64,000 nt of DNA from Cymbomonas tetramitiformis (lineage: Eukaryota; Chlorophyta; Pyramimonadophyceae; Pyramimonadales; Pyramimonadaceae). The stretch is from NCBI GenBank assembly GCA_001247695.2, contig LGRX02029362.1, positions 1 to 64,000 on the forward strand, written 5' to 3'. The position numbers and the translations under genes were made by a program. Below, one piece after another: positions 9,393 through 54,147 of the stretch. Within the stretch, counting starts at the first letter, position 1. Each line of letters starts with the position of its first letter. Under the pieces are notes generated by a model. It was not told the DNA's origin. It searched no databases and saw nothing but the letters and a program-made list of their open reading frames with translations.

Positions 9393-9566
9393 CGCCGAGC
9401 CCAGCGCCAGCCCCGCAAGCTCCGCCGCAGGTACGAAGCCGGACGTGAAACTCAATGCGGATGATGGATCACCAGCCTTCTGCAGAGCTCCTGTTAGTCG
9501 GCAGGGAATGGGGGCCAGAGCAGTCAGTATGTACCTGAATCTTTGATGGTAAACGATTCCACAGAG

Positions 9567-13899: not shown

Positions 13900-14134
13900 G
13901 TAGAACAGAAAAACCCACAGCTCTCTTGATTACACCCCAGGTGTAAGCTTACACCCCAAACCCTCCCCCCCCCATGAACGCCAAAATGCAGAATTTGACA
14001 GGCGGGATTTACACCGAAATGGAGGTGGTCATAACACTGGCAGGGTGTGCGATGTGTGCAGAGTGATACAAGAATTTCCGCAAGAACAAACACACAGGGG
14101 ATCCCAGGATTATTCCCAGGAGAGCATCACGGAC
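13900..14134. other. Intron or linker between LRR exon 15 and the Pro-rich exons
   Basis: No clear coding signal on the minus strand apart from a possible short exon after the acceptor near 13890. It includes a C-homopolymer run near 13970. Confidence 0.4.
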
Positions 14135-14200
14135 ACAAGCAGATACGTGTGAGCAATCTCCGTGGGCACCGTGCCTGCCAAGTTGTTGTTAGAAATCGAC
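14135..14200 (-). CDS. LRR exon 15 (66 bp)
   Basis: CAG acceptor; the donor is a non-consensus GTCCGT. At 66 bases it still keeps phase 2-2. SISNNNLA then GTVPTEIAH, so two residues are missing from the standard repeat. It could be the last LRR before a C-terminal cap (a cysteine-bearing stretch NCDCTGIHGPLA starts near 13890 after a TACAG acceptor) or a decayed exon. Confidence 0.5.
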
Positions 14201-23200: not shown

Positions 23201-26200
23201 TGTGGTTACGGGGTGCCAAAGGAGTCAGTCCAAGGATTAACATACACACACAACGCGAGCAGGGCGGTTGCAGAGACGCTCTAATGGCTGTGCAAGGCTT
23301 AGGGGGTCCCATTCTTCACGACAGAGCTCCAGAAATTCTGGATGAGTGTTCTGAAGTGTGTGTTTATAATAATCCTTTGATCCCCGGCGTGGGTACATAG
23401 TGCAGCTGATCTTCTGTGGTTACGGGATGCCAAAGGAGTCAGTCCAAGGATAAATACACACACAACGTTGTGTGCATGTATATTGTTGAAGATGATTTGG
23501 ATTCCCGTGTACGAGGTATGATTTAAAAGTTCTCGATGAGCACAAAAATATGCAAAGAAAAACAAATGAAAAGTTTAACCCCATTTATATTCGCAAACTA
23601 AGACCCTTTCAGAAGCTTACAAATCTTGTCTATGAAGTTAAGGAACCTGTTATTAAACGGCAAACGTTATTCTTAGTTTGCAGAAATCGCTTGAAAGACA
23701 CAGGGGGTCTGCCACCATGGAACTTTCTGACAGGAAATTTCGGAAATCATGACGACAAATTATGAAGCCGCGATCGCGATGGATTGCGATTGTTGCCTGG
23801 AACTTTGAGTTCTTTTACGGGGTTTGCCCTATTTCTCCCCTTATAGGCTGAGAACTAGAATGATGTTATAAACACGTTGCAAATAATCATGGAACGATTA
23901 ACTGCACAATAGCACTGGTAATAAATTGCTATGAAAATATATATTGTGAATTGTCTAGCTGCACATACGCGGTTTGTCCCAGCCACGGGCACTCGTCAGT
24001 AGGCTTCAGCGAAAAAGGCTTTCCCCCCGTGGTCCCGATACCACTTCACGGTCCTAAGCATATCACAGTACAGATTCAAACAAGTATGTCACGCGGCCAG
24101 CATGTGCTGTACGAAGGAATTGTATGCTTGTACTCTCGAGTAGTGATTGACTAAAAGCAGTGCAGATTAAAATCGCGACATGGAACCATCCCCCTTGCGT
24201 GTGGACAGAACACAAACACCTCTTATCATGGTGTCTGGTGTGTCCACACTTTTAGTCGTCAAAAGGGACTGCATGTAACATAGAAGATTCAGTTAAGCCA
24301 TTTGGGCAAACGCATACGCTTTATAATTTCAAATACTATAGTATTCAATGGCTGAATATGTACCTATGCCATCCCATGCCAGTGTCATAGCCAGTGAGGG
24401 CCAACTAAATTAATTTAGCCAATAATATTTGTGCAATGCACATATGTAGACTATACAGAAGCATAACGGACAGAAAACTAAAAGGAGGGCTAGGCTCCCT
24501 CGGAAGAATTAGCCACACAACCTGAAAAGGTGGCGGTCTTTCATTCATTCATTCTATGTATACTATACATGATCATTAGGGATGTTAAGCAGGAAAATCT
24601 TTACTAAAACACAAAGTTGATATGTACATCCCTTGGCGCTATCTCATTCGAGCCAGCGTCAAAGGTCCACTTGAGCTTTGAGCGCCCGAACTGCACCCGA
24701 ACTGCAAGTGCGTGACCTAACCGGAAATTTATGCCGCATATGTGTACTAGAGTGCACGGCACAACACTAGATGATACAAAACAAGTGAACCGAATAGATT
24801 TGTTGATCCGAATGTCGTGTGATGCTGTGTGTTGAAATTTGCTAGATAGGCGACGCGCTTGCGGGTTCGGGTGAAGTTCGGGATCTCAGAGTTCAATCGG
24901 ATCTTTGGCGCTAGCTAGAATGAGCCAGCACCAGAAGAATGAGAACTTAAACGTACATCAATAATATCAGTTGTAAACTTCAAAGTTTGATGATTACTTA
25001 AATGATATGAAGTTGCGCATGAAGGAGGGCTGAGGTGAGACTCAAGGCCTCGCCAGAGCCCTCAGCGACAACACCCAGGCCGCCCAATGCCAATTCGGAA
25101 ATTTGCCTAAATGATTGCCTCTGAGTCCGTCGTGCCTCTCGAAATAAGTTCAAGTGAGTTCCACGCATGTAAATCCTGATGTACGCCATCAGAATGCCGC
25201 CAGCGCTCCACATGCATGTGCTTGTCTACAGCTATAGCACTCCCCTCACCCACTCCACAGGAGCCTCAGCCGATGCCTGCGACAACAAGCGGAGCGTTGC
25301 ATTCCCACTCAGCAGCAGCGCACCGCCGTGCAGCGGAAGCCGCTCACGAGACTCTCACGCCTCACGTGGCCATTGCCTCCCGTCCCTATATCCACATGCC
25401 CTCGGGGTGCTTACATTTCATTCAGATCAGTGAGCGCCCCGATCTCCGTAGGCACCGTGCCTGTCAGCTTGTTGCCACTAAGATGCCTGCGGCAAGCCCA
25501 GCAGCCCACACACCCTCTATGGTCCTCCCTCCTTCCGCTGCGCCGGACACAGCAGCGCCTCACGACGACCAATACATGTGTTTGGCATGTGTACGGCATG
25601 CGTGCGGCACTCTGCGCTGTTCAGAACGGTGTGCAGTGTAGCTGCCTCGGATCACGCCCGTTCTTATAGAATGGGCCCAGGCACCGTGCCAACGCTCACG
25701 CAGCTCAGGCCACGTGGACATTTATATGTGAATCAATAGAAGCACAAACTTTTATTGAGCTTTCGCCAAATCCTCTTGAGTCTTGCCAAATGCTCGGAGA
25801 GCTTTTGCAACGGTTCGTCAGGTAGGTGAACTAGTATTCATACTTTCAACTGTGCTCGTGCTTCTCGTCATACTCCGACCTGAAGTTCTAAAGGGAACGA
25901 GGGCTTACCTGAGTTGGAAGTTTAGCCCTGAACTGCGATCACGTGAAATTCGACTGTCCGCAGCTATCTCACACTGCCCGGAACAAACGACGTGGTTTGC
26001 CGTGGGACAAGAAGCCTTTGCAAGCGGCCATGCAGAAAGTGTCAGAGGCAATGGAAGTGGTTGAGGAAGCAAGGGGGGCAAATGAGCATTTGCCACCACA
26101 CGTGCCAAAGGCGGATGACGTCAAGAAGTTGAGTGATTACAGCAGGTCTCAAAAGCGTGCCCAACGGGTCTATGCTGCTGTCCTCCACTCTGCAGATTGG

Positions 26201-29200
26201 CTTTGGCTGGCTGGGCAAGTGGGGGCGGCTCGTTTTTCGTGGCTCTTCTCAGTGACCTACAATAGCACCGTCAATTTTGATGGGTGTCTCGTGCTGCCCG
26301 GCATTAGAGCTCAGTTCGGCAGAATATCGGGTGGCCCTACGACACATTCTTCACCCAGAGCAACTCCTCCTTGGTCCAGCGGGGGAGTGCCCCGACTGTG
26401 GGGGAGAGTGGGATTCCACAGGGACACACTTGTTGGCATGCAGAGGAGGATCGGGGACTGGCGGAGGAGACTGGTACTCTTTCATTTACCACAAGCTGCA
26501 GAGGGTGCTCTTTGAGGCGGCCAAGTCTGCTTATCTGTTGGCGTCTGTGGTGCACGATGATTTCGCGGGCCACCTGACATACTCACCGAACCATTGCCAG
26601 GATGTGACAGTGCTTGATGCGAAGGGGCCCAGTCAGCATGTGGTGATCGATGTTGCCACCGGAAGGCTGCACGATGAGGTGGAGACAAGGGCCTTCGCCG
26701 CCGTTTGATGACGAGGTGTCGCTGAGGGACGCAACTCAGCAGCAGCAGAAGTGGCTGGACGCGGAGAAGGAGAGACTTTTGGCGAATATTGCATGGTCGA
26801 TCGAGATCGAAGAGGTCTCACCTTTCTCGCGCCTTTTTAGTACCAAACCGAGTACAAACAATTGGAGACTTGTGGCGGACTTCAGATGGCTAAATCAGTG
26901 GTGCTTGAAGGGCAGGATGCGGATGGAAACACTGAAGAAGCTGCGCAGGCTGGAGAAGCCGCAAGACAGGTGCTTCAGCTTCGACATGCAGGACGGTTTT
27001 CACGCGCTTGAAATTCATCGCGATTTCCAAACGTTCATGCACTTCGACCTCCAAGAAGAGCTCTTCAAAACTCTCGGCGGTCCCCTTTGGATGGAGCGGT
27101 CGATGCGCCGCAGGTGTTTCGCAAATCCGTATGTGCGATGGTGGATGCATTACGTTCCGCCCGCAGGTAGCAGCAGATCGCAAAGCAGTACGACGTCTAC
27201 GGGACGGTTCAATCATACGACAACGGTGGTCTGTTCATCGCAGAGTGGGATGCGCTGGTGGGAATCAGCATGTCGGGATGGGTGTGCTGCCGTACATGGA
27301 CAACATTCCGGCGTCAATAGACTCTCACTGAGAAGGCGTGCAGAAACAGGATCGAGTCCAGTGTGTGCTCCATCGTCTCGGTTCGCAGCGGCACGAAAAG
27401 AAAGGACATCGGGACCCGGTGTGGATCGTCGAGAACCTTGGTCTGGAGGTGGACTTGAAGCAAGGCCAATATCGCGTGACAGAGCAGCGTGTACGCAAGA
27501 TCAACGTCAGGGCAAAAGAGATTCTGTGTGACGCGATAAGAACGCGGAGGTGGATCCGTGCAACGTGAATAACCTTTTTCCGGGGCTCTGTCGATCTGTG
27601 GACCTAGCCGTGCCAGCAACGAGGCTCTACCTACGAGAGTTGTACTTTGTGCTATCAGAGAAGTGCAGCTGGGACGTGAAGGTGAAGATTATTTGAGCGG
27701 CATGGACAGACTTGGAATGGTGGTCTCGCCTACCGGTGATGAGCATGTGGAACGGCCGCAGGATCTGGCGGTCACTGACTCAGGATCTGGCGGTCACTGA
27801 TGCAGGCGAAGCTGCACGCGAATTCCTCGATGATGGCGTAGGGCAGCGTGCTCAACCTCGAGCAATCTGCGAGAGGTTTTTGGCCTAACGAGATGCATAG
27901 TTGGCATATCATACACCTGGAGCTGGAAGCAGTATACAAGACGATGCAAGCGTTTCTGCAAGGGCTTGAGGGCAAGGTTGTACTTCTGAACTGCGACAAC
28001 CAGGCAGTGATGGCCGTGCTCTCCCACTTCACTTACAGGAACCCGGTCTTGATAAGGAGAATGCGAAGACTTTGATCGCTCCTCGACTTACATCGGGCTA
28101 CAGGCTTGTTACATCCGCAGCAAAGCCAGCGTGTGGACTGACAACCTTTCTTGCTGCGAGGATGTGGACGATTGAAGGCCCAAACGGAGGTGGTTTGAGT
28201 GGATGGGCCAGCAAGCAGTGGGGCCCCTACATGGCGAACCGGTTCGCGTCCAAGATCTCTGGGCAGCTCCCGCGTTACTATGCAGCGTGAAAAGATCCTG
28301 GTGTGCGAGGGTGTGGATTCTCTGGCGTACTGCTGGAGGGGGGAGAACAATCTGGTGAACCCCCGTGGGCATTGCTGGACGAGGTGGCTCAAAAGCTGCG
28401 GGAGGAGGAAGCTGCCACGACGCTGATGCCACGAGCATGCAGCCTTGGCTGCTACACCTGCCCTCGGGTACTTACAAGTAAAACAGCCGTGTGGCCGTCC
28501 CCATCTGCGTGGGCACCGTGCCCGTCAGGCTGTTGCTACTAAGATACCTATTGGCACGCACACCAGCCCACGCACCCTCACTCACACGTGGTCCTCCCTC
28601 CCTCCCTTCCTCCCTCTCCCTCCTTGCGCAGCGCCCACAACCACCCACCCCTCAGCCCGCACTGCACTGCTGCAGTACAGTCACGGGTGCGTTGAAGCGC
28701 TGCAAGGACGGATGCCATACATCATTCTGTCCTCTGTCAAGCCCGTGCTGATCCCGCCCGCTCTAAAGCTGGGCTCAATGGTGTGATCATCCATGATGAC
28801 CGTGAACACACCCTTCCTCACCGCTCACCACCTGCTGGACATTCGGTCGTATGCGAGGTGTCCACCTGGGCTGGAGTTTGAGGCAGGACTCGACGACATA
28901 CACACGTCTCAAGCATGCAGCAGGATGTATATGAGCTAAAGCAGGCTTACTTGCAGGGCCTAGTCTGAGACCTCCGAGGGCACCACCCCTGCCCTGTGAC
29001 CCTGCACCTCGAGGGTGGGGCACCCATCCCTGCACGAGCCGGGACTGCACCGCAGAATGGGCACCACTCCCGCAGACTGATGATTGTGCGCACCAGTCCC
29101 GAGGAAGCCCGTCTCGGTGTGGGCAGCCACGAGCACCCGCAAAAGCCAAAGGGCACACATTCATCGCCTCTGAACACTACTCGCAACAACAATGCTGCAC

Positions 29201-32200
29201 ATCCGGCACCCTGGCAGCGGGCATCATCGGAAGCTCTCGGCAGCACAGCCAGAGCGATGCACACCCTGCTGCCCACGGCCATGGGATCCGCCCCCGACAG
29301 GCTGTGGGAGCCGTCCAACCGCATCACCGACATACGCCCCGACTGAGAACAACAAATTGCAGCGAAGCAGCCGAACGGCCCCTGAGGCCCCGCATAGATA
29401 CCGCCCACAGGGGTAGCATGCTTGGGTGCTTGGTCGCTTCCCTTGTCCGGCTTTCCAACACGCCTTCCGCCCCCCTCCCGCACGAGTCTCCGTCCATGCC
29501 ACCGCCCACCCCCACCAGCACTGTACCCTGTCTCAGCATGTCTCAGCATGCAGCCTTGGCCCTGCTGCTACACCTAACCCTCGGGTACTTACAAAGTAGT
29601 CAGCTGTGTGAGCGCCCCCATCTGTGTGGGCACCGTGCCCGTGAGCAAAAGGTCTTCAAGATCCCTGCAGCACGCACACCAGCCCACACACCCTCACTCA
29701 CACGCGGGTCCTCCCTCCCTCCCTCCCTCCCTCCTCAGCGCCCGCAACCACCCACCCCTCAGCCTGCACCGCGCTGCTGTCTCCTCCATCCCCCACCTGC
29801 CCGCCGCTCGTCAGCATCATTGTCCCTCCCTCACCAACCCAGCAATGGCCCTGCATCGTACCCGTTGCCACCATTGCCATCATCGGCTGCTTTACCCTAC
29901 GTGATGCACGGTGATGGGCAAACCCTCGCTTCCACGCCCTGCACAACTGCGCCTACATACACATCCACACCATGCCGCATGCACACCGGCGTTGCTACCG
30001 GGTGTGCACCCTCTACGGACCGCAGCTATGTGAGGTCTGACCGCATCAACGCCGCACTTTGCTCTACACCTCCCGGCACCTCTTCCCCTGGTAGTGCACC
30101 AGAAGCCACCCGACATGCAGACCCCGCAGCACTGTGCCTTCGATCGGACCCGTCATAGCATCATCCAAGATACCAGCCAACCCCCCAGATCCCGTGACGC
30201 CTGCCTGTATGTCGTGACTTTAGCCACTGCCTCAGGCCCCTCCCTCACTCCTGTGAACTGAACGTGCCACCAGGACAGTCACGGGTGCGTTGAAGCGCCT
30301 CAAGGCCGGATGCCACACATCATTCTGTCCTCTGTCAAGTCCGTGCTGATCCCGCCCGCTCTAAAGCTGGGCTCAATGGTGTGATCATCCATGATGACCG
30401 TGAACACACCCTTCCTCACCGCTCACCACCTGCTGGACATTCGGTTGTATGCGAGGTGTCCACCTGGGCTGGAGTTTGAGGCAGGACTCGACGACATACA
30501 CACGTCTCAAGCATGCAGCAGTATGCATGTGAGCTAAAGCAGGCTTACTTGCAGGGCCTGGTCTGAGACCTCCGAGGGCACCGCCCCTGCCCTGTGACCC
30601 TGCACCTCGAGGGTGGGGCACCCATCCCTGCACGAGCCGGGACTGCACCGCAGAATGGGCACCACTCCCGCAGACTGATGATTGTGCGCACCCGTCCCGA
30701 GGAAGCCCGTCTCGGTGTGGGCAGCCACGAGCACTCGCAAAAGCCAAAGGGCACACATTCATCGCCTCTGAACACTACTCGCAACAACAATGCTGCACAT
30801 CCGGCACCCTGGCAGCGGGCATCATCGGAAGCTCTCGGCAGCACAGCCAGAGCGATGCACACCCTGCTGCCCACGGCCATGGGATCCGCCCCCGACAGGC
30901 TGTGGGAGCCGTCCAACCGCATCACCGACATACGCCCCGACTGAGAACAACAAATTGCAGCGAAGCAGCCGAACGGCCCCTGAGGCCCCGCATAGATACC
31001 GCCCACAGGGGTAGCATGCTTGGGTGCTTGGTCGCTTCCCTTGTCCGGCTTTCCAACACGCCTTCCGCCCCCCTCCCGCACGAGTCTCCGTCCATGCCAC
31101 CGCCCACCCCCACCAGCACTGTACCCTGTCTCAGCATGTCTCAGCATGCAGCCTTGGCCCTGCTGCTACACCTAACCCTCGGGTACTTACAAAGTAGTCA
31201 GCTGTGTGAGCGCCCCCATCTGTGTGGGCACCGTGCCCGTGAGCAAAAGGTCTTCAAGATCCCTGCAGCACGCACACCAGCCCACACACCCTCACTCACA
31301 CGCGGGTCCTCCCTCCCTCCCTCCCTCCCTCCTTGCGCAGCGCCCGCAACCATCCACCCTCAGCCCGCACTGCGCTGCTGTCTCCTCCATCCCCCACCTG
31401 CCCGCCGCTCGTCAGCATCATTGTCCCTCCCTCACCAATCCAGCAATGGCCCTGCATCGTACCCGTTGTCATCATTGCCATCATCGGCTGCTTTACCCTA
31501 CGTGATGCACGGTGATGGGCAAATCCTCGCTTCCACGCCCTGCACAACTGCGCCTACATACACATCCACAACATGCCGCATGCACACCGGCGTTGCCACC
31601 GGGTGTGCACCCTCTGCGGCCCGCGGCCAAGTGAGGTCTGACCGCATCAACGCCGCACGTCGCTCTACACCTCCCGGCACTTCTTCCCCTGGTAGTACCC
31701 CAGCAGCCACCCGACATGCAGGCCCCGCAGCACTGTGCCTTCGATCGGACCCGTCATAGCATCATCCAAGATACCAGCCAACCCCCCAGATCCCGTGATG
31801 CCTGCCTGCCTGTCGTCACTCTAGCCACTGCCTCAGGCCCCTCCCTCACTCCTGCGAACTGAACGTGCCACCAGGACAGTCACGGGTGCGTTGAAGTGCT
31901 GCAAGGCCGGATGCCACACATCATTCTGTCCCTGTCAAGTCCGTGCTGATCCCGCCCCCTCTAAAGCTGGGCTCAATGGTGTGATCATCCATGATGACCG
32001 TGAACACACCCTTCCTCACCGCTCACCACCTGCTGGACATTCGGTTGTATGCGAGACGTCCACCTGGGCTGGAGTTTGAGGCAGGACTCGACGACATACA
32101 CACGTCTCAAGCATGCAGCAGTATGTATTTCGGCTGAAGCAGGCCCTGGTCTGAGACCTCCGAGGGCACCACCCCTGCCCTGTGACCCTGCACCTCGAGG

Positions 32201-35200
32201 GTGGGGCACCCATCCCTGCACGAGCCGGGACTGCACCGCAGAATGGGCACCACTCCCGCAGACTGATGATTGTGCGCACCCGTCCCGAGGAAGCCCGTCT
32301 CGGTGTGGGCAGCCACGAGCAGCCGCAAAAGCCAAAGGGCACACATTCATCGCCTCTGAACACTACTCGCAACAACAATGCTGCGCATCCGGCACCCTGG
32401 CAGCGGGTATCATCGGAAGCTCTCGGCAGCATAGCCAGAGCGATGCACACCCTGCTACCCACGGCCATGGGATCCGCCCCCGACAGGCTGTGGGAGCCGT
32501 CCAACCGCATCACTGACATACGCCCCGACTGAGAACAACAAATTGCAGCGAAGCAGCCGAACGGCCCCTGAGGCCCTGCATAGATACCGCCCACAGGGGT
32601 AGCATGCTTGGGTGTTGGTCGCTTCCCTTGTCCGGCTTTCCAACACGCCTTCCGCCCCCCTCCCCCACGAGTCTCCGTTCATGCCACCGCCCACCCCTGC
32701 CAGCACTGTACCCTGTCTCAGCATGTCTCAGCATGCAGCCTTGGCCCTGCTGCTACACCTGCCCTCGGGTACTTACAAGTGATACAGCTGTGCGAGCGCC
32801 CCCATCTGCGTGGGCACCGTGCCCGTCAGGCTGTTGTCATGAAGATACCTGCAGCACGCACACCAGCCCACGCACCCTCACTCACACGTGGTCCTCCCTC
32901 CCTCCCTTCCTCCCTCTCCCTCCTTGCGCAGCGCCCGCAACCACCCACCCCTCAGCCCGCACCGCGCTGCTGTCTCCTCCATCCCCCACCTGCCGCTCGT
33001 CAGCAACATTGTCCCTCCCTCACCAACCCAGCAGTGGCCCTACATCGTGCCCATTGTAACCATTGCCATCATCGGCTGCTTTACCCTACGTGATGCACGG
33101 TGATGGGCAAGCCCTCGCTTCCACGCCCTGCACAACTGCGCCTACATACACATCCACACCATGCCGCATGCACACCGGCGTTGCCACCGGGTGTGCACCC
33201 TCTGCGGACCGCGGCCAAGTGAGGTCTGACCGCATCAACGCCGCACTTCGCTCTGCACCTCCCGGCACCTCCTCCCCTGGTAGTACCCTAGAAGCCACCC
33301 GACATGCAGGCCCCGCAGCACTGTGCCGTCGATCGGACCCGTCATAGCATCATCCAAGATATCAGCCAACCCCCCAGATCCCGTGATGCCTGCCTACGTG
33401 TCCTCACTCTAGCCACTGCATCAGGCCCCTCCCTCACTCCTGTGAACTGAACGTGCCACCAGGACAGTCACGGGTGCGTTGTCACGCTGCAAGGCCGGAT
33501 GCCATACATCATTGTGTCCTCTGTCAAGCCCGTGCTGATCCCGCCCGCTCTAAAGCTGGGCTCAATGGTGTGATCATCCGTGATGACCGTGAACACACCC
33601 TTCCTCACCGATCACTACGTGCTGGACGTTCGGTTATATGCGAAACGTCCACGTGGGCTGGAGTTTGAGGCAGGACTCCATGACATAAGTCTAAACCATG
33701 CAGAAATATGCATATGAGCTAAAGCAGGCTTACTTGCAGGGCCTGGTCTGAGACCTCCGAGGGCCCCACCCCTGCCCTGTGACCCTGCACCTCGAGTGTG
33801 GGTCACCCATCCCTGCACGAGCCGGGAGTGCACCGCAGAATGGGCACCACTCCCGCAGACTGATGATTGTGCGCACCCGTCCCGAGGAAGCCCGTCTCCG
33901 TGTGGGCAGCCACGAGCAGCCGCAAAAGCCAAAGGGCACACATCCATCACCCCTGAACACTATTTACAACAACAATGCTGCACATCTGCCCTCGGGTACT
34001 TACAACTCAACCAGCTGTGTGAGCAACCCCATCTGCGTGGGCACCGTGCCCGCCAGAATATTTGCGATAAAAATGCCTGCAACACGCACACCAGCCCACA
34101 CACCCTCACTCACACGCCGGTCCTCCCTCCCTCCATCCCTACCTGCGCAGCGCCCGCAACCACCCACCCCTCACCCCGCACCGCGCTGCTGTCTCCTCCA
34201 TCCCCCACCTGCCGCTCGTCAGCATCATTGTCCCTCCCTCACCAACCCAGCACTGCCCCTGCATCGTGCCCATTGTCACCATTGCCATCATCGGCTGCTT
34301 TACCCTACGTGATGCACGGTGATGGGCAAACCCTCGCTTCCACGCCCTGCACAACTGTCCCTACATACACATCCACACCATGCCGCATGCACACCGGCGT
34401 TGCCACCGGGTGTGCACCCTCTGCGGACCGCGGCCAAGTGAGGTCTGACCGCATCAACGCCGCACTTCGCTCTGCACCTCCCGGCACCTCCTCCCCTGGT
34501 AGTACCCCAGAAGCCACCCGACATGCAGGCCCCGCAGCACTGTGCCGTCGATCGGACCCGTCATAGCATCATCCAAGATACCAGCCAACCCCCCAGATCC
34601 CGTGATGCCTGCCTACGTGTCCTCACTCTAGCCGCTGCCTCAGGCCCCTCCCTCACTCCTGCGAACTGAACGTGCCACCAGGACAGTCACGGGTGCGTTG
34701 TCACGCTGCAAGGCCGAATGCCATACATCATTCTCTCCTCTGTCAAGTCCGTGCTGATCACGCTCGCTCTAAAGCTGGGCTCAATGGTGTGATCATCCAT
34801 GATGACCGTGAACACACCCTTCCTCACCGCTCACCACCTGCTGGACAGTCGGTTTTATGCGAGACGTCCACCTGGGCTGGAGTTTGAGGCAGGACTCCGC
34901 GACATACTTCTAAAGCATGCAGCAATATTCATACTTGCTTCAAATCACTCGAACAGTCTATTTCGTTTTTAGCGTTAACATAGGCACCTGCATCATCCTG
35001 GCAAGCGGCACTCCTTGATTTTTCATAAAATTTGGATACTTTACGTTTGAAAGGAGTCCATGGGGCCATTCGAGAGCAAAAAATATTTTTGGAAAAAATG
35101 TTTTGTGGTACCCAAGTCTACTAAAGTTGCAAAATATACTGAATATATAGGGTATTTAGGATGTCATTATAGAGAGGGGTGCAAGGGCACGTGATGCGCC

Positions 35201-38200
35201 CCGAGGTGAAAAGTTGGGGGCCAACATCCAATCGAAAGTGCCGAAAACCGTTTTTGGGTGAAATTTGAGGCTGGCCGGAAAGATGCAGATTTACCACAGT
35301 GGAGATTTGCCCTGGGGAAAAATAGGGGAAAATCCAGCCGGAAAAATCGAAATGAGCAAAAAACAATCCAAAGATTTAGTTTGGACCTCCAAACCCATAA
35401 ACCATGGATACTTGAACGCCAAAATCATTTTTTGGAATTTTTTTTGCTCAATTGGATTTTTCCAATTGGATTTTCCCCTATTTTTCCCCAGTGCAAATCT
35501 CCACTTTGGTAAACCTGCATCTTTCCGGCCAGCCTCAAATTTCACCCAAAACAGTTTTCGGCGCTTTCGGTTGAATGTTGGCCCCCAACTTTTCACCTCG
35601 GGGCACATCACGTGCCCTTGCACCCCTCTTTATAATGACATCCTAAATACCCTATATATTCAGTATATCTTGAAATTTCAGTAGATTTGGGTACCACAAA
35701 ACATTTTTTAAAAAAATATTTTTTGCTCTCGAATGGCCCCATGGATTCCTTTCAAACGTTAAGTATCCAAATTTTATGCAAAATCAAGGAGTGCCGCTTG
35801 ACAGGATGATTCAGTTGCTTGGGTAAAAGCTAAAAACGAAATAGACTGTTCCAGTGATTTGGAGGAAGTATGAGCTAAAGCAGGCTTGCTTGCAGGGCCT
35901 AGTCTGAGACCTCCGAGGGCACCACCCCTGCCCTGTGACCCTGCACCTCGAGTGTGGGGCACCCATCCCTGCACGAGCCGGCAGTGCGCCGCAGAATGGG
36001 CACCACTCCCGCAGACTGATGATTGTGCGCACCCGTCCCGAGGAAGCCCGTTTTACTGTGGGCAGCCACGAGCAGCCGCAAAAGCCAAAGGGCACACATC
36101 CATCGCCTCTGAACACTACTCGCAACAACAATGCTGCACATCCGGCGCCTTGGCAGCGGGCATCATCGGAAGCTCTCGGCAGCACAGCCAGGGCGATGCA
36201 CACCCTGCTGCCCACGGCCATGGGATCCGCCCCCGACAGGCTTTGGGAGCCGTCCAGCCGCATCACGGACATACGCCCCGACTAAGAACAACAAACTGCA
36301 GCAAAGCAGCCGAACGGCCCCTGAGGCGAGGCCCCGCATAGATACCGCCCACAGGGGTAGCATGCTTGGGCTTTGGCCGCTTCCCTTGTCCGGCTCTCCA
36401 ACACACCTTCCACCCCCCTCCCCCACGAGTCTCCGTCCATGCCACCGCCCATCCCCAACAGCACTGTACCCTGCCTCAGCATGTCTCAGCATGCAGCCTT
36501 GGCCCTGCTGCTACACCTGCCCTCAGGAATACTTACAAATAAGTCAGCTGTGTGAGCGCCCCCATCTGCGTGGGCACCGTGCCCGTCAGGCTGTTGCTAT
36601 CGAGCCTCCTGCAACACGCACACCAGCCCACGCACCCACTCACATGCCGGTCCTCCCTCCCTCCCTCCCACCCTCCCTCCCTCCTGCGCAGCGCCCGCAG
36701 CCACCCATCCCTCACCCCGCACCGCGCTGCTGTCTCCTCCATCTCCCACCTGCCGCTCGTCAGCATCATTGTGCCTCCCTCACCAACCCAGCAATGCCCC
36801 TGCATCGTGCCCATTGTCATGATTGTCATCATCGGCTGCTACACCCTACGTGATGCACGGTGATGGGCAAACCCTCGCTTCCACGCCCTGCACAACTGTC
36901 CCTACATACACATCCACACCATGCCACATGCACACTAGCGTTGCCTTCAGGTGTGCACCCTCTGCGGACCGCGGCCAAGTGAGGTCTGACCGCATCAACG
37001 CCGCACTTCGCTCTGCACCTCCCGGCACCTCCTCCCCTGGTAGTATCCCAGAAGCCACCCGGCATGCAGGCCCCGCAGCACTGTGCCGTCGATCGGACCC
37101 GTCATAGCATCATCCAAGATACCAGCCAGCCCCCCAGATCCCGTGATGCCTGTCTGTGTGTCCTCACTCTAGCCATTGCTCAGGCCCCTCCCTCACTCCT
37201 GTGAACTGAACGTGCCACCAGGACAGTCACGGGTGCGTTGTCGCGCTGCAAGGCCGAATGCCATACATCATTCTCTCCTCTGTCAAGTCCGTGCTGATCC
37301 CGCTCGCTCTAAAGCTGGGCTCAATGGTGTGATCACCTATGCTGACCGTGAACACACCCTTCCTCACCGCTCACCACCTGCTGGACATTCGGTTGCATGC
37401 GAGACGTCCACCTGGGCTGGAGTTTGAGGCAGGACTCCATGACATAAGTCTAAACCATGCAGCAGTATGCCATGTGCGCTAAAGCAGGCTTGCTTGCAGG
37501 GCCTGGTCTGAGACCTCCGAAGGCACCACCCCTGCCCTGTGACCCTGCGCCTCGAGTGTGGGGCACCCATCCCTGCACGAGCCGGGAGTGCACCGCAGAA
37601 TGGGCACCACTCCCGCAGACTGATGATTGTGCGCACCCGTCCCGAGGAAGCCCGTCTCGGTGTGGGCAGCCACCAGCAGCCGCAAAAGCCAAAGGGCACA
37701 CATTCATCGCCTCTGAGCACTACTCGCAACAACAATGCTGCCCATCCGGCACCCTGGCAGCGGGCATCATCGGAAGCTCTCGGCAGCACAGCCAGGGCGA
37801 TGCACACCCTGCTGCCCACGGCCATGGAATCCGCCCCCGACAGGCTTTGGGAGCCGTCCAGCCGCATCACGGACATACGCCCCGACTGAGAACAACAAAC
37901 TGCAGCAAAGCAACCGAACGGCCCCTGAGGCGAGGCCCCGCATAGATACCGCCCACAGGGGTAGCATGCTTGGGCGTTGGCCGCTCCCCTTGTCCGGCTC
38001 TCAACATTCCGCCCCCCCACTAGTCTCCGTCATGCCACCGCCCATCCCCACCAGCACTGTATCCTGCCTCAGCATGTCTCAGCATGCAGCGTTGGCCCTG
38101 CTGCTACACCTGCCCTCGGGTACTTACAAATTAACCAGCTGTGTGAGCGCCCCCATCTGCGTGGGCACCGTGCCCGTCAGGCTGTTGTAATCGAGCCTCC

Positions 38201-41200
38201 TGCAGCACGCACACCAGCCCACACACCCTCACTCACACGCCGGTCCTCCCAGCCTCCTTGCGCAGCGCCACGACCCTGCCCCACCCCGCACCGCGCTGCT
38301 GTCTCCTCCATCTCCCACCTGCCGCTCGTCAGCATCATTGTGCCTCCCTCACCAACCCAGCAATGCCCCTGCATCGTGCCCATTGTCATGATTGTCATCA
38401 TCGGCTGCTACACCCTACGTGATGCACGGTGATGGGCAAACCCTCGCTTCCACGCCCTGCACAACTGTCCCTACATACACATCCACACCATGCCACATGC
38501 ACACTAGCGTTGCCTTCAGGTGTGCACCCTCTGCGGACCGCGGCCAAGTGAGGTCTGACCGCATCAACGCCGCACTTCGCTCTGCACCTCCCGGCACCTC
38601 CTCCCCTGGTAGTATCCCAGAAGCCACCCGACATGCAGGCCCCGCAGCACTGTGCCGTCGATCGGACCCGTCATAGCATCATCCAAGATACCAGCCAGCC
38701 CCCCAGATCCCGTGATGCCTGTCTGTGTGTCCTCACTCTAACCGCTGCCTCAGGCCCCTCCCTCACTCCTGTGAACTGAACATGCTACCAGGACAGTCAC
38801 GGGTGCGTTGTCACGCTGCAAGGCCGGATGCCATACATCATTCTCTCCTCTGTCAAGTCCGTGCTGATCCCGCTCGCTCTAAAGCTGGGCTCAATGGTGT
38901 GATCATCCATGATGACCGTGAACACACCCTTCCTCACCGCTCACCACCTGCTGGACAGTCGGTTGCATGCGAGACGTCCACCTGGGCTGGAGTTTGAGGC
39001 AGGACTCCGCGACATACTTCTAAAGCATGAAGCAGTATGCCATGTGCGCTAAAGCAGGCTTGCTTGCAGGGCCTGGTCTGAGACCTCCGAAGGCACCACC
39101 CCTGCCCTGTGACCCTGCACCTCGAGTGTGGGGCACCCATCCCTGCACGAGCCGGGAGTGCACCGCAGAATGGGCACCACTCCCGCAGACTGATGATTGT
39201 GCGCACCCGTCCCGAGGAAGCCCGTTTTACTGTGGGCAGCCACGAGCAGCCGCAAAAGCCAAAGGGCACACATCCATCGCCTCTGAACACTACTCGCAAC
39301 AACAATGCTGCACATCCAACACCCTGGCAGCGGGCATCATCGGAAGCTCTCGGCAGCACAGCCAGAGCGATGCACACCCTGCTGCCCACGGCCATGGGAT
39401 CCGCCCCCGACAGGCTTTGGGAGCCGTCCAGCCGCATCACGGACATACGCCCCGACTGAGAACAACAAACTGCAGCAAAGCAGCCGAACGGCCCCTGAGG
39501 CCCCGCATAGATACCGCCCAAAAGGGTAGCATGCTTGGGCGTTGGCCGCTTCCCTTGTCCGGCTCTCCAACACGCCTTCCGCCCCCCTCCCCCACTAGTC
39601 TCCGTCCATGCCACCACCCACCCCCACCAGCACTGTACCCTGCCTCAGCATGTCTCAGCATGCAGCGTTGGCCCTGCTGCTACACCTGCCCTCGGGAATA
39701 CTTACAAATAAGTCAGCTGTGTGAGCGCCCCCATCTGCGTGGGCACCGTGCCCGTCAGGCTGTTTTCAGCAAAATTCCTGCAGCACGCACACCAGCCCAC
39801 GCACCCTCACTCACACGCCGGTCCTCCCTCCCTCCCTCCTCTGTCCTCGCAGCCGCGCCGCCGCCCACCCACCCCACCCACCCCACCCCGCACCCCGCAC
39901 CGCGCTGCTGTCTCCTCCATCTCCCACCTGCCGCTCGTCAGCATCATTGTGCCTCCCTCACCAACCCAGCAATGCCCCTGCATCGTGCCCATTGTCATGA
40001 TTGTCATCATCGGCTGCTACACCCTACGTGATGCACGGTGATGGGCAAACCCTCGCTTCCACGCCCTGCACAACTGTCCCTACATACACATCCACACCAT
40101 GCCACATGCACACTAGCGTTGCCTTCAGGTGTGCACCCTCTGCGGACCGCGGCCAAGTGAGGTCTGACCGCATCAACGCCGCACTTCGCTCTGCACCTCC
40201 CGGCACCTCCTCCCCTGGTAGTATCCCAGAAGCCACCCGACATGCAGGCCCCGCAGCACTGTGCCGTCGATCGGACCCGTCATAGCATCATCCAAGATAC
40301 CAGCCAGCCCCCCAGATCCCGTGATGCCTGTCTGTGTGTCCTCACTCTAACCGCTGCCTCAGGCCCCTCCCTCACTCCTGTGAACTGAACATGCTACCAG
40401 GACAGTCACGGGTGCGTTGTCACGCTGCAAGGCCGGATGCCATACATCATTCTCTCCTCTGTCAAGTCCGTGCTGATCCCGCTCGCTCTAAAGCTGGGCT
40501 CAATGGTGTGATCATCCATGATGACCGTGAACACACCCTTCCTCACCGCTCACCACCTGCTGGACAGTCGGTTGCATGCGAGACGTCCACCTGGGCTGGA
40601 GTTTGAGGCAGGACTCCGCGACATACTTCTAAAGCATGAAGCAGTATGCCATGTGCGCTAAAGCAGGCTTGCTTGCAGGGCCTGGTCTGAGACCTCCGAA
40701 GGCACCACCCCTGCCCTGTGACCCTGCACCTCGAGTGTGGGGCACCCATCCCTGCACGAGCCGGGAGTGCACCGCAGAATGGGCACCACTCCCGCAGACT
40801 GATGATTGTGCGCACCCGTCCCGAGGAAGCCCGTTTTACTGTGGGCAGCCACGAGCAGCCGCAAAAGCCAAAGGGCACACATCCATCGCCTCTGAACACT
40901 ACTCGCAACAACAATGCTGCACATCCAACACCCTGGCAGCGGGCATCATCGGAAGCTCTCGGCAGCACAGCCAGAGCGATGCACACCCTGCTGCCCACGG
41001 CCATGGAATCCGCCCCCGACAGGCTTTGGGTGCCGTCCAGCCGCATCACGGACATACGCCCCGACTGAGAACAACAAACTGCAGCAAAGCAGCCGAACGG
41101 CCCCTGAGGCCCCGCATAGATACCGCCCACAGGGGTAGCATGCTTGGGCGTTGGCCGCTGTCCGGCTCTCCAACACGCATTCCGCCCCCCTCCCCCACTA

Positions 41201-44200
41201 GTCTCCGTCCATGCCACCGCCCATCCCCACCAGCACTGTACCCTGCCTCAGCATGTCTCATCATGCAGCGTTGGCCCTGCTGCTACACCTGCCCTCGGGA
41301 ATACTTACAAAAAAATCAGCTGTGTGAGCGCCCCCATCTGCGTGGGCACCGTGCCCGTAATACGCATATCTTGAATATACCTGCAGCACGCACACCAGCC
41401 CACGCACCCTCACTCACACGCCAGTCCTCCCTCCCTCCCTCCCTCCTCCTTGCGCAGCACCCGCAACCACCCACCCCTCACCCCGCACCGCGCTGCTGTC
41501 TCCTCCATCTCCCACCTGCCGCTCGTCAGCATCATTGTCCCTCCCTCACCAACCCAGCAATAGCCCCTGCATCGCGCCCATTGTCACCATTGCCATCATC
41601 GGCTGCTTTACCCTACGTGATGCACGGTGATGGGCAAACCCTCGCTTCCCCGCCCTGCACAACTGTCCCTACATGCACATCCACACCATGCCGCATGCAC
41701 ACCGGCGTCACCACCGGGTGTGCACCCTCTGCGGACCGCGGCCAAGTGAGGTCTGACCGCATCAACGCCGCACTTCGCTCTGCACCTCCCGGCACCTCCT
41801 CCCCTGGTAGTACCCCAGAAGCCACCCGACATGCAGGCCCCGCAGCACTGTGCCGTCGATCGGACCCGTCATAGCATCATCCAAGATACCAGCCAACCCC
41901 CCAGATCCCGTGATGCCTGTCTGTGTGTCCTCACTCTAACCGCTGCCTCAGGCCCCTCCCTCACTCCTGTGAACTGAACGTGCCACCAGGACAGTCACGG
42001 GTGCGTTGTCGCGCTGCAAGGCCGAATGCCATACATCATTCTCTCCTCTGCCAAGTCCGTGCTGATCCCGCTCGCTCTAAAGCTGGGCTCAATGGTGTGA
42101 TCATCCATGATGACCATGAACACACCCTTCCTCACCGCTCACCACCTGCTGGACAGTCGGTTGTATGCGAGACGTCCACCTGGGCTGGAGTTTGAGGCAG
42201 GACTCCACGACATACACACGATTGTCTCAAGCATGAAGCAGTACATATATGGGCCAGAGCAGGCTTACTTGCAGGGCCTGGTCTGAGACCTCCGAGGGCA
42301 CCACCCCTGCCCTGTGTCCCTGGACCTCGAGGGTGGGGCACCCATCCCTGCACGAGCCAGGAGTGCACCGCAGAATGGGCACCACTCCCGCAGACTGATG
42401 ATTGTGCGCACCCGTCCCAAGGAAGCCCGTCTCGGTGTGGGCAGCCACCAGCAGCCGCAAAAGCCAAAGGGCACACATCCATCGCCCCTGAACATTACTC
42501 GCAACAACAATGCTGCCCATCCGGCACCCTGGCAGCGGGCATCATCGGAAGCTCTCGGCAGCACAGCCAGAGCGATGCACACCCTGCTGCCCACGGCCAT
42601 GGGATCCGCCCCCGACAGGCTTTGGGAGCCATCCAGCCGCATCACGGACATACGCCCCGACTGAGAACAACAAACTGCAGCAAAGCAGCCGAACGGCCCC
42701 TGAGGCCCCGCATAGATACCGCCCACAGGGGTAGCATGCTTGGGCGTTGGCCGCTGTCTGGCTCTCCAACACGCCTTCCGCCCCCCTTTCCCACTAGTCT
42801 CCGTCCATGCCACCACCCATCCCCACCAGCACTGTACCCTGCCTCAGCATGTCTCATCATGCAGACTTGGCCCTGCTGCTATACCTGCCCTCGGGAATAC
42901 TTACAAATAAGTCAGCTGTGTGAGCTCCCCCAACTGCGTGGGCACCGTGCCCATCAGGCTATCGTCGAAAATATACCTGCAGAACGCACACGAACCCACG
43001 CACCCTCACTCACACGCCGGTCCTCCCTCCCTCCCTCCTTGCGCAGCACCCGCAACCACCCACCCCACCCCGCATTATGAGCGATGTCATTAGCCTCGTG
43101 AAGGAGGGCCAGCTCGGGAAGGCGATTCGGCGGCTTGATCCTGGGGTCCTTGCCCCACTGACACCCGAGACTATCGAGGCCTTGCGGGTGTTGCACCCAG
43201 TTGGGGATGGGCTGCCGGCGAGCGTTCAGGCAGCCCCTTTGGTCCTTGAGGAGACGGCGGTGGAGGCGGAGTGCCGGAGGATGCCGGTGGCTTCAGGGCC
43301 TAGGTGCTCTCAGTTGCGGTTTGAGCACCTTGACGCCGTCTTCGGTGCTGGAGATGGGGTGCCGGCCATTCAGCATGCCTGTGAACAGATTGTGTCCAAC
43401 AGGATTCCAGCGGAAGTCCAGCCGTGGATTATGGGGGCGCGATTGGTGGCTCTCCTTAAGCCAGGGGGTGGAGTGCGCCCGATTGCTTGCGGCGAGGTGC
43501 TTAGGAGGCTGGCTGGGAATGTGGTTTGCAGGCAGATGAAGACCCGCTTTGCGGCTCATTTTGGGGCACCTCCGGAGGCAGGCGCGGCTTCGTCGGCGGC
43601 CCAGGTGGGGGTCGGAGTGCATGGAGGTGCAGAGGTGTGCGTTCACTCGGTGCAGGCACTGCTGGGGGCTTTCCCCACGTGGTGTGCCCTCCAACTGGAC
43701 TGCAAGAACGCCTTCAACACGGTGCACAGGCGAGCGATTCATCGGGCAGTGTACGAGGACTTCCCAGAGTTGTTGGGGCTGACGGAGAGCTGTTTCCGCC
43801 ATGAGCCTTGGCTTGGCTGGCGGGGGGCGGATGGACAGTTCGAGTGGATTCGCTCGGCAGAGGGCACTCAGCAGGGGGACCCGCTCGGTCCGTTCTTCAT
43901 GGCGGCACCTTTGCAGCCTGTGCTTCGAGAGTTATTGCGGGCGCACCCGGAGGTGTACATCATTGCCTACCTGGACGACATTCACATTTTGGGGGAGCCG
44001 GAGCGGGTGCGGGAGGCGTATGACGTGGCCGTGCCGTTGCTGGCAGATATTGGACTGGAGCTGAATGTGGGGAAGAGTGCAGTCTTTAGCCCGTCAGGAG
44101 CATGTGAGGCCTTCCAGGATGTGGTGGACGCCGGCGGTGAGCCGATGCCCGGGGCTGTGGTGCCTCTCCAGGGTATCCGGGTGCTGGGGATTCCTGTGGG

Positions 44201-47200
44201 CTCGGAGACCTGGGTTGCGGACCAGTGTCTCGTGATGGCTAGCACGGCAGGGGCCATCCTTCCGAAGTTGGCAAGGTTAAATGATCCCCAGGTCCAGTTG
44301 CTCCTCCTTCGGTATTGTGCCCACCCTCGCTTCATGCACTTGGTGCGGGGGGTGCAGCCACATCTGTTGATGAGGGGGGGCCTTGAGCATGATACGAGCA
44401 TTCAGCGGTGCTTGCAGGAGGTGGCGGGCAGCCCCTACCCCCTTGGTGAGGAGGCGGTGGCTTTGAGTCAGTTGCCGACCCGGTGGGGGGGGTTGGGCTT
44501 GACTTCGGCTCAGCGGCTAGCGCCGGCGGGGTGGCTGGGCTCTTGGGCGCACGTGTGGAAGCGTATTGTGGTGATGTTCCCGGCGGTCAGGGGGTTGCTG
44601 CCGCACCTTGGGGCGCCGGAGGGGACAGATGCAGGTGGACACCCCCTCGTGGCGAGCTTGGTCTCCGCGATGGGGGCTGTGCGCGGTGCGAGGGAGACGG
44701 TGCTGGCGGCGAGGGCGAGGGGGCATGTGCTGCCGGAGGCGCTCAAGGTCCCGGAGGAAGCGCCAAGATGGGAGAGTTTCGGCGACACTCGGCCGGCGAG
44801 TCAGAAGGAGCTAACAATTTGTCAACATGGTTCCGACTGGCTTCGCTTGTTTGATGCGGCCAATTCTTCCGTCCGAGCGCGGCTGCTTAGCCTTTCTCGG
44901 GATGGGGCCACGTGGCACTTGAATGCCTTGCCCATGGAGGGGGGCTTCCGCCTTAAGCCCATCGCCTCGGTGGTCTCCTTGTGTCTCCAGCTTGGTGTCA
45001 CCCTCCCACTTATCCGGGAGGTCTCCGCCGTTGGGACTGGGCGGTGCAGATGTGGTGGGGTGGTGGATGAATTTGGATACCACTACCTTGCATGCAACCG
45101 TATGGGCATGTTTACATATCGTCACGACGCGGTGCAGGACGTGCTTGTTGAGATGTTGCGCAAGGTGTTTGACCCCGCCTCCGTGAAGAAGACGCATGCA
45201 TACCATCACAGTTATTCGCCGAGGTGGAGGCCGGACATCACGGTCCTCAACTACGATGGGCGTGGACGGCATCTCATTATCGACGTCGTTGTGGGGTTCC
45301 CTTGTGCCCCCTCTCACGTGGGGGGAGCATCACAGACACCGTTGCATACGGCGGCGGTGGAGGAGCGGCGGAAGGTGGCTCTCTACGGAGATATCACCCC
45401 ACATCGATTGGTGCCATTTGCAGTGGAGGCTTTTGGAGGCCTTGGTGAGCAGGCGAAGAAGTTCCTTGAGGAGTGCGCGGGTGGAAGGCAAGACCGGCTT
45501 GGGCCGGAACTCATCTCGGCTACGTGGTCTACTCCGATTTTTAAGTCATATTGGGGGCAGAAGATCATGGTGGCGCTGCACGGGGCTCAGGCCTTTGGAT
45601 TGCACAGCAGGGCTCTTGCGGACTTTCCGCAGTGAGTGCTATGTGGAGGGGCTTTGATCTTTGTTTTGCAGGTGGAGAGGCATTGCAGCTTTTGAAGATG
45701 GGAGATGGCTTGAAGAGATTTTGTTCGCATGAAGAAGAGAAGAGTCAAGATAGAATGAAACAGATTGAGACAGAATGTGGCAGATTCATGTTGTTCTAGA
45801 TGGGACATTCCGAGAATTGTTCAAGTTGCTCTTGTTAGGACTTGGTTAGCTTGGGTTTCTCTTTGTTAGAGGTGTTTTCTGTTGAACATTTTAGTCAGGG
45901 TGATTCTGTGGACTTTATATCAGACTCTTTGGACACTTTTTGTAAAATTGCCATTTAATGAAATACCCACCCCACCCCGCACCCCGCACCGCGCTGCTGT
46001 CTCCTCCATCTCCCACCTGCCGCTCGTCAGCATCATTGTCCCTCCCTCACCAACCCAGCACTGCCCCTGCATCGTGCCCAGTGTCACCATTGCCATCATC
46101 GGCTGCTTTACCCTACGTGATGCACGGTGATGGGCAAACCCTCGCTTCCACGCCCTGCACAACTGTCCCTACATGCACATCTGAACCATGCCGCATGCAC
46201 ACTAACGTTGCCTTCGGGTGTGCACCCTCTGCGGACCGCGGCCAAGTGAGGTCTGACCGCATCAACGCCGCAATTCGCTCTGCACCTCCCGGCACCTCCT
46301 CCCCTGGTAGTACCCCAGAAGCCACCCGACATGCAGGCCCCGCAGCACTGTGCCGTCGATCGGACCCGTCATAGCATCATCCAAGATACCAGCCAGCCCC
46401 CCAGATCCCGTGATGCCTGCCTGTGTGTCCTCACTCTAGCCATTGCTCAGGCCCCTCCCTCACTCCTGTGAACTGAACGTGCCACCAGGACAGTCACGGG
46501 TGCATTGTCGCAAGGCCGGATGCCATACATCATTCTCTCCTCTGTCAAGTCCGTGCTGATCACGCTCGCTCTAAAGCTGGGCTCAATGGTGTGATCATCC
46601 ATGATGACCATGAACACACCCTTCCTCACCGCTCACCACCTGCTGGACAGTCGGTTGTATGCGAGACGTCCACCTGGGCTGGAGTTTGAGGCAGGACTCC
46701 ACGACATACACACGATCGTCTCAAGCATGAAGCAGTACATATATGGGCCAAAGCAGGCTTACTTGCAGGGCCTGGTCTGAGACCTCCGAGGGCACCACCC
46801 CTGCCCTGTGACCCTGCACCTCGAGTGTGGGGCACCCATCCCTGCACGAGCCGGGAGTGCACCGCAGAATGGGCACCACTCCCGCAGACTGATGATTGTG
46901 CGCACCCGTCCCGAGGAAGCCCGTCTCGGTGTGGGCAGCCACCAGCAGCCGCAAAAGCCAAAGGGCACACATCCATCGCCTCTGAACACTACTCGCAACA
47001 ACAATGCTGCGCTTCCGGCACCCTGGCAGCGGGCATCATCGGAAGCTCTCGGCAGCACAGCCAGAGCGATGCACACCCTGCTGCCCACGGCCATGGAATC
47101 CGCCCCCGACAGGCTTTGGGAGCCGTTTGACCGCATCACGGACATACGCCAAATGAATGCCATCTGCCATGTTGCTAGATGAGCGCAGTGCGTAGTGGGT

Positions 47201-48165: not shown

Positions 48166-48167
48166 GA

Positions 48168-48980: not shown

Positions 48981-49189
48981 TGTTCAAATTGGAGTGCAAC
49001 AGAATTTTTGTGGTTTCAGAATTTCGGAATCCGTGACTCCTGCTGCAGCCGAGCTGATGACAATGACAAATGTAGGACCGTGACAATAGCAAGAACAGCA
49101 AGGTTACGAGTAGCCACGAACCGACATGCATGTTCAGCTCTGTTCTTTTTGCTCTTGCAAACAGGAACTTCACGGGTACCTAGTATCCT

Positions 49190-54115: not shown

Positions 54116-54147
54116 CTGGAGCATTCCGAGTTAAGCTCAATAAGCAT

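Follow-up and report, generated by a model that had tools for sequence, protein, structure and literature searches.

A candidate receptor-kinase gene with a variable array of leucine-rich-repeat exons in the green alga Cymbomonas tetramitiformis

Cymbomonas tetramitiformis is a phagotrophic, bacteria-eating prasinophyte green alga. The stretch of its genome analysed here, hereafter the window, comprises bases 1-64000 of the 86,607-bp contig C20041 in a genome of 851.7 Mb, and its minus strand carries what is likely, to judge from sequence, a surface receptor-kinase gene that is one of a family. At the center of this locus lies a tandem array of ten leucine-rich-repeat (LRR) exons (42976-28476), all ten of which were found where an earlier note, made from the letters alone, had placed them, and in which variation is focused on five codons per repeat (the x codons), whose residues would be those in contact with the bound target, a pattern reminiscent of immune receptors elsewhere. 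The assembly combines ~45x Illumina and 17.4 Gb of Nanopore data in MaSuRCA, with an N50 of 39 kb, and the frequencies of single-nucleotide polymorphisms indicate that the organism is tetraploid (PMC10675990).

Architecture of the locus

The LRR exons of the array are each 72 nt in length, begin at the third base of a leucine codon and end with two bases of a leucine codon (phase 2), and their product reads x5-L6-x7-x8-N9 ... GTVPTQMGALTQ-L1-x2-x3, where x denotes the variable residues of the motif LxxLxLxxN. The pattern of the exon core, with up to three mismatches allowed, occurs 12 times in the window and not once in 100 shuffles of it. A unit length of about 1.59 kb had been proposed in the earlier note, and this holds for six of the nine spacings (1596, 1603, 1578, 1591, 1586, and 1598 bp) but not for the other three; in order along the array, the spacings of 2533 and 1227 bp follow the fourth and that of 1117 bp is the last. 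Splice sites, likewise described as constant, are in place (AG and GT) at 9 of the 10 array exons; the exception is unit 34075-34004, in which the acceptor AG is one base off, giving 73 nt if spliced at AG, and which would therefore be frame-shifted or skipped. When the LRR exons are joined, 12 of 13 are phase-2 exons with 72 nt from AG to GT, and exon 1 together with the 13 LRR exons forms an open frame of 352 amino acids with no stop. Exons 31262-31191 and 29664-29593 are identical, so that the x codons differ in most but not all units, with nine distinct x sets among ten exons. The joined LRR part is of the plant type (Pfam LRR_1, 1e-31; LRR_8, 1.7e-29), and its nearest relatives in the PDB are PEPR1, GSO1, and FLS2, in agreement with the comparison to plant LRRs made previously. 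The coordinates of all features are listed in Table 1.

Table 1. Features of the candidate receptor-kinase gene and of the mobile element within it (window positions; TM, transmembrane; ORF, open reading frame; LINE, long interspersed nuclear element; LTR, long terminal repeat)
Feature	Positions	Strand	Remarks
Exon 1: signal-peptide-like start (by eye) and short N-terminal cap (MKVPSALFILCWAMQFKAAAA VTIENHSDYQECIQTNCSRL)	47220..47341	-	Phase-2 donor
Non-LTR retrotransposon (LINE) in intron before first LRR exon	43072..45964	+	852-aa ORF; RVT_1, E 1e-14
LRR exon 1 (LYIFDDSLMGTVPTQLGELTQLTY)	42905..42976	-	72 nt, AG/GT, phase 2
LRR exon 2 (LYIQDMRITGTVPTQMGALTQLIF)	41309..41380	-	
Intron with 1,116-bp run common to next intron	39778..41308	-	Conversion tract or assembly homogenisation
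LRR exon 3 (LNFAENSLTGTVPTQMGALTQLTY)	39706..39777	-	
LRR exon 4 (LRLDYNSLTGTVPTQMGALTQLVN)	38128..38199	-	
LRR exon 5 (LRLDSNSLTGTVPTQMGALTQLTY)	36537..36608	-	
LRR unit 6	34004..34075	-	Acceptor AG one base off; frame-shifted or skipped; downstream flank broken
LRR exon 7 (LYLHDNSLTGTVPTQMGALAQLYH)	32777..32848	-	Identical to a C626 unit; 0/220 upstream differences
LRR exon 8 (LDLEDLLLTGTVPTQMGALTQLTT)	31191..31262	-	
LRR exon 9	29593..29664	-	Identical to exon 8
LRR exon 10 (LYLSSNSLTGTVPTQMGTATRLFY)	28476..28547	-	
Diverged LRR exon, PTEIG type	25415..25486	-	Same phase as array
Diverged LRR exon, PTEIG type	22773..22844	-	Same phase as array
Diverged LRR exon	18073..18144	-	Same phase as array
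Last LRR-like stretch (SISNNNLAGTVPTEIAHTYLL...)	14110..14200	-	In-frame stop after it; form unlike 72-nt exons
Pro-rich stalk, extracellular segments, TM helix (by eye, ~11970-11890), tail	11627..13700	-	
MLKL_N, four-helix bundle	8859..9494	-	PF22215, E 1.4e-10; tblastn of CYMTET_43545
Protein kinase and C-terminus, three exons (8246-7749, 7393-6884, 6628-6260)	6260..8246	-	PF07714, E 1.3e-50 on CYMTET_43545; tblastn

Upstream of the array, the cap encoded by exon 1 holds two cysteines, and a homologous exon 1 is found on another contig (C23394:11076) ahead of that contig's array; over 40 codons, the two copies are separated by 10.2 amino-acid-changing and 0.8 silent differences. In the mature part alone, 7.2 amino-acid-changing and 0.8 silent differences were counted over 19 codons. 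In the published protein CYMTET_4142 (P0066; from a 91,146-bp contig, the same size as C385), an exon-1-like exon is joined to LRR repeats, and a protein of Pyramimonas parkeae (P0060; MMETSP; taxid 36894) has a similar signal peptide and cap followed by 24-residue repeats with variable x residues. A single-sequence structure prediction of P0060 is of low confidence (mean predicted local distance difference test score, 51); its strands recur with a period of ~24 residues and would start by x3 and reach ~x8, which, with residues placed by hand, lends weak support to this arrangement.

Downstream of the array, the published C. tetramitiformis protein CYMTET_43545 matches the window at 94-100% per exon in a tblastn search. 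The architecture is seen in part in published proteins: CYMTET_52869 (P0012), a single predicted protein, includes LRRs, a cysteine-bearing cap, a TM segment, and the start of MLKL_N, and P0001 (same contig) comprises MLKL_N and kinase, with the catalytic motifs VAYK, HGDLKSRN, and DFG recognized by eye. The Pro-rich part contains a frame break in the window, while the copy on contig C626 is open for 763 codons. Signal peptide, LRR, TM, and kinase follow one another on one strand, with P0012, P0066, and P0001 each joining subsets of these parts and none spanning them all. That the array is a stand-alone LRR gene was considered and rejected, given the presence of exon 1, TM, MLKL_N, and kinase on the same strand. 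Comparison of MLKL_N plus kinase between C20041 and C626 yielded 0.0117 amino-acid-changing (dN) and 0.0761 silent (dS) substitutions per site, an omega (dN/dS) of 0.15 (by part: 0.05, 0.26, 0.10, and 0.45); on these ratios, the signalling half is under purifying selection. In the stalk, TM, and tail, the corresponding proportions of differences are 0.025 (pN) and 0.034 (pS). The protein searches returned 3, 47, and 666 matches (120 of the 666 listed), of which 13 sequences were examined. For MLKL_N and kinase behind a transmembrane LRR receptor, there are similar Cymbomonas and EukProt proteins (P0004-P0011).

Divergence of x codons, exon core, and introns

Pairwise divergence was calculated for 28 of 34 units (378 pairs) from contigs C20041, C12412, C23394, C25645, and C626; the six left out (C626_37381, C626_35459, C20041_34050, C20041_28522, C25645_17711, and C12412_163) have broken or short flanks, are diverged, or are of odd length. 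In this set, the five x codons differ at 0.484 of their bases (0.544 at first and second bases, 0.366 at third bases), the 39-nt exon core at 0.046, and fourfold-degenerate sites of the core at 0.114, and the intron differs at 0.075 over 540 bp downstream and at 0.042 over 40 bp upstream. The ratio of x to intron divergence is 6.4 (4.9-8.4 upon resampling of units, a range that is not a formal test because the units are non-independent). The 6-nt window covering x2 and x3 has a pi of 0.579 against a maximum of 0.275 among 533 intron windows of the same length, although intron windows reach up to 0.46 when units with broken introns are mixed in. The focus of variation on the x codons that had been claimed from the letters is borne out by these values; introns as diverged as the x codons, which would have spoken against it, were looked for and not found.

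The description of the introns as nearly unchanged is accurate for the pair that had been named, 41308-39778 and 39705-38200 (20 mismatches in 1500 aligned bases, plus 37 gap columns), but is too strong for introns in general: across 17 of 18 units with intact introns (C20041_29639 was dropped on account of the shorter interval after it), full introns differ at 0.062 over 1380 bp and the x codons at 0.495. The exons at either side of the first of these introns, 41380-41309 and 39777-39706, are separated by 14 differences in 72 bases, of which 12 fall within the first 25. The statement that they differ at most bases of a short stretch stands for exon positions 8-22 (10 of 15) but not for the x-codon bases (7 of 15).

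Sequence variation was also compiled for 53 of 56 exons from nine contigs, after C626_37381, C626_35459, and L048 were dropped and the array on contig C25450 and the PTEIG exons excluded. These comprise 42 distinct sequences with 42 distinct x sets. Among the 42, the numbers of residue types are 15 at x5, 14 at x7, 10 at x8, 13 at x2, and 13 at x3, and entropy is 2.5-3.5 bits at the five x sites and at most 1.08 bits at all other positions. Codons between the x codons are mostly conserved (L6 in 36 of 42, N9 in 38 of 42).

Selection, mutation, and conversion

Several observations bear on the process that separates the x codons. Where x2 codons are fourfold degenerate, their first two bases vary but 32 of 37 exons have T at the silent third position, and change at x2 is therefore mostly at the amino-acid level; at x3, x7, and x8, fourfold codons are too few or third bases more mixed. 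The x codons stand several-fold above the silent level (~0.11), so that relaxed constraint, which could reach the silent level at most, is insufficient as an explanation. Nor is it enough to invoke homogenised introns, because fourfold sites within these exons are only slightly older than the introns. These data support strong diversifying selection on the amino acids at the x sites, as had been proposed, with 0.544 at first and second x bases compared with 0.114 at core fourfold sites within those exons, a contrast in pairwise divergence and not the output of a site model. Differences at x codons do not track intron distance smoothly. Where introns are less than 1% apart, none of the eight unit pairs has any change in its x codons; in one pair with introns 1.5% apart, 7 of 15 x bases differ; and among 11 pairs at 2-3% intron distance, the number of x differences is 0 (four pairs), 3 (one), 5 (four), or 8 (two). 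A special mutational mechanism for the x codons, the other possibility that the earlier note had raised, is not supported by the silent T at x2 or by the eight unchanged pairs.

With respect to conversion, introns 41308-39778 and 39705-38200 have in common an identical run of 1,116 bp that starts at about intron position 308 and ends ~80-110 bp before the exon. All 20 differences between the two lie outside this run, and the surrounding exons differ at 7 and 8 of 15 x bases. Such a run is the mark expected from intron conversion, although homogenisation by a hybrid assembler could leave a similar one. The comparison supports a role for conversion as a homogeniser of introns and not as a source of x diversity, which narrows the earlier suggestion of a conversion mechanism.

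Copies of the locus and turnover of units

Contig C626 aligns with window positions 5.8-26 kb in ten long matching blocks (87-97%) and carries eight array exons, six of which are in frame at 72 nt. The listing of array exons requires the exact core pattern, and a prior core scan, which missed the C626 array, is a lower bound. Only one of the six in-frame C626 units (49949) has an x set found among the ten of C20041, that of exon 32848-32777. Compared by exon order alone, contig C24865 reads SLSY-YLHS-ELPD and contig C18220 reads SLSY-YLHS-QLSY-WLSY-ELPD, with two extra units. Together these comparisons indicate that units come and go and that x sets differ between copies, be these alleles or paralogues. 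Exon halves are also reused at the amino-acid level, with five 5' blocks combined with more than one 3' block and six 3' blocks with more than one 5' block. Of the seven x sets found more than once, six recur on different contigs. A second array, on contig C25450 (L018-L019), has a spacing of ~345 bp and 14 exons seen, and shows the same contrast as the main array (x 0.355, core 0.060, and intron 0.052 in 12 of the 14 units). Units of odd length or shifted by one base (34004-34075; L033, L034, and L048) may represent decaying exons or assembly errors.

Proposed explanation and its rivals

Taken as a whole, the observations are probably best explained by a receptor-kinase gene with a variable LRR exon array that is shaped by diversifying selection, shuffling of units, and intron conversion. 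All parts would form one transcript, whose ectodomain would be a plant-type LRR solenoid built from tandem, interchangeable 72-nt phase-2 exons. What the receptor binds would be variable molecules, foreign or of a partner, from microbes, viruses, prey, or mates, and diversifying selection would drive the residues of the binding site apart. Unequal recombination in near-identical introns would lead to whole units being gained, lost, and reshuffled, with the frame kept by the uniform 72-nt length and phase 2 of the units, and gene conversion would homogenise the introns and thereby sharpen the contrast between these and the x codons. Since the intron divides the variable strand, with x2 and x3 before it and x5, x7, and x8 after it, each new exon neighbor would create a new strand. 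The most likely function, as far as it can be read from sequence, is surface recognition of microbes, viruses, prey, or partners, with the kinase relaying the signal and, perhaps, an MLKL-like output that acts on membranes or causes death. The elements established at the level of sequence are the in-frame join of exon 1 to the LRR exons, the LRR family, the order of TM, MLKL_N, and kinase, the low dN/dS of the signalling half, and the excess at x codons.

A number of points weigh against this explanation. The x excess is a measure of pairwise divergence rather than of a PAML or HyPhy site model, and pS within the x codons (NG86) is likewise high (0.43). The 300 bp upstream of the exons, including a G-rich tract, differ at 0.198 across all pairs, and the earlier description of introns as hardly changing does not extend to this stretch. 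An aberrant length or a shifted frame is found in four units (C20041_34050, C626_37381, C626_35459, and L048). With regard to gene structure, the last LRR-like stretch is followed in frame by a stop codon, and any splice from it to the stalk is tentative; the CYMTET_43545 model begins downstream of the LRR exons and lacks the TM stretch; signal peptide and TM were assigned by eye; MLKL_N in P0012 scores 21.5 bits, under the Pfam cut-off of 27; and the array is known here from genomic DNA.

The rival that deserves most attention, though it is unlikely, is that the arrays are old and subject to concerted evolution, such that introns and core are homogenised and old x residues are merely retained, with no ongoing diversification. 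This process would leave introns with an identical run that breaks off ahead of the exons, and also x differences that jump instead of growing with intron distance. However, the fourfold sites that lie ~40 bp or less from the x codons are only slightly older than the introns, and retention alone is insufficient given how few of the in-frame C626 units share an x set with C20041. A focused mutational or templated mechanism at the exon edges (hypermutation, or microconversion from donor exons) would account for dense multi-base patches such as AACAGCCTG versus CTTTTGCTC or the 10 of 15 bases that differ between exons 41380 and 39777, for the position of both x blocks at exon ends, and for the reuse of exon halves. 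Judged by the exon units compared here, it is nonetheless very improbable: the silent base of x2 is mostly fixed, the L and N codons that stand amid the x codons are mostly conserved, and 0 of 15 x bases differ in any of the eight pairs with introns less than 1% apart (nor in four non-independent pairs at 2.2%, a weak point where about two changes would be expected).

About as improbable is an assembly artefact, in which Illumina super-reads placed on Nanopore reads homogenised the introns or generated chimeric units from a tetraploid genome and a heterogeneous culture. The hybrid MaSuRCA assembly and the tetraploidy make this conceivable (PMC10675990), and contigs C12412, C25645, and C23394 end in or near the G-rich tract; against it, several contigs and a second type of array show the same pattern, most repeated x sets are found on different contigs, and an artefact would not yield in-frame x differences at amino-acid-changing bases. 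A graveyard of decaying exons has a similarly slight chance, as does a working receptor that splices in subsets of units only. Off-length units and a transposon within an intron would fit decay, and alternative splicing in the brown-algal counterparts (PMC11378527) would fit the use of subsets, but a graveyard is difficult to reconcile with a conserved core, intact AG and GT at nine array exons, and an open joined frame. A bolder extension of the receptor-kinase explanation, which we regard as doubtful, is that exon units with intron-split binding strands are exchanged between near-identical introns often enough to sustain a repertoire by recombination, with specificities that differ among the cells of one culture or among sexual offspring and that are wired to an MLKL-like death or feeding switch.

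Comparison with known systems

The statement in the earlier note that no algal system of this kind had been described proved incorrect. In brown algae (Ectocarpus and Saccharina), LRR-ROCO genes encode one LRR per 72-bp phase-2 exon, undergo exon shuffling, and have four concave positions in the exon product (14, 16, 18, and 19) that are under positive selection (PMC11378527). The Cymbomonas gene resembles these in its 72-nt phase-2 LRR exons and in its excess of amino-acid change (as pairwise divergence) at concave x sites. It differs in that the brown-algal proteins are ROC-COR GTPases, whereas it would encode TM, MLKL_N, and kinase: in Pfam scans, the joined LRR part and CYMTET_43545 yielded LRR families, MLKL_N, and kinase but no Roc or COR. 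Moreover, the selected brown-algal sites appear, from their numbering, to fall within one exon, whereas in Cymbomonas an intron parts x2 and x3 from x5, x7, and x8, and each binding strand is thus built by two exons. The brown-algal genes are reportedly also the subject of Zambounis et al. 2012. Exon arrays have a further precedent in a protist, the ciliate Tetrahymena, where tandem 90-bp phase-2 LRR exons are accompanied by LINE-like intron remnants and shuffling by ectopic recombination was proposed (PMC6564038). The exons of Cymbomonas are 72 nt, and it shows an x excess, whereas the Tetrahymena text makes no mention of concave-site or diversifying selection (PMC6564038).

Like the land-plant receptor kinases PEPR1, GSO1, and FLS2, the Cymbomonas gene would combine a plant-type LRR ectodomain with a TM segment and a kinase; unlike them, it gives each repeat a 72-nt exon of its own, the introns being repeated too, and would have MLKL_N placed after the TM segment and ahead of the kinase. 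To the best of our knowledge, that exon design and that placement of MLKL_N are absent from land-plant LRR receptor kinases. In MLKL and plant MLKL, MLKL_N precedes a kinase as it does here, where the pair stands behind a transmembrane LRR receptor. Lamprey variable lymphocyte receptors, with which the array had also been compared, carry their diversity on the concave residues of LRRs and are assembled somatically from cassettes. The likeness extends to the location of the diversity; somatic assembly is a feature of the lamprey receptors, and the Cymbomonas data represent one assembly of one culture.

A system of the Cymbomonas type was unreported among the matches listed in searches of the openly licensed PMC literature for prasinophyte LRR receptors, algal exon shuffling, and MLKL with LRR, and likewise among those listed for Cymbomonas prey recognition, which include passages of PMC11217555; for Cymbomonas together with LRR, the listing consisted of two papers with a single mention of either term. 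What is new here is the occurrence in the green lineage, the MLKL_N receptor kinase, and introns that split each variable strand across two exons; the green-algal exon design has probably arisen independently of those of brown algae and ciliates. A green-algal receptor kinase with an MLKL-type domain would constitute a further, differently built case of an LRR exon array, and the locus would offer a concrete test case for a rapidly renewing repertoire by which single-celled algae recognize viruses, bacteria, prey, or mates.

Mobile elements at the locus

The LINE in the intron before the first LRR exon looks young, with its reverse transcriptase ORF intact; it is bordered by an apparent target repeat of 16-17 bp and sits in the G-rich tract of the intron, the same part of a unit in or near which contigs C12412, C25645, and C23394 end. 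A role for it as a site-specific shuffler of units was considered and rejected, as the element is unmatched on C12412 and C25645 and matches C23394 weakly and elsewhere. Other ORFs and repeats that resemble mobile elements (26675-28408, 50578-51901, and 48137-55030) are located in introns and flanks and are ~70-95% identical to sequences on homologous contigs.

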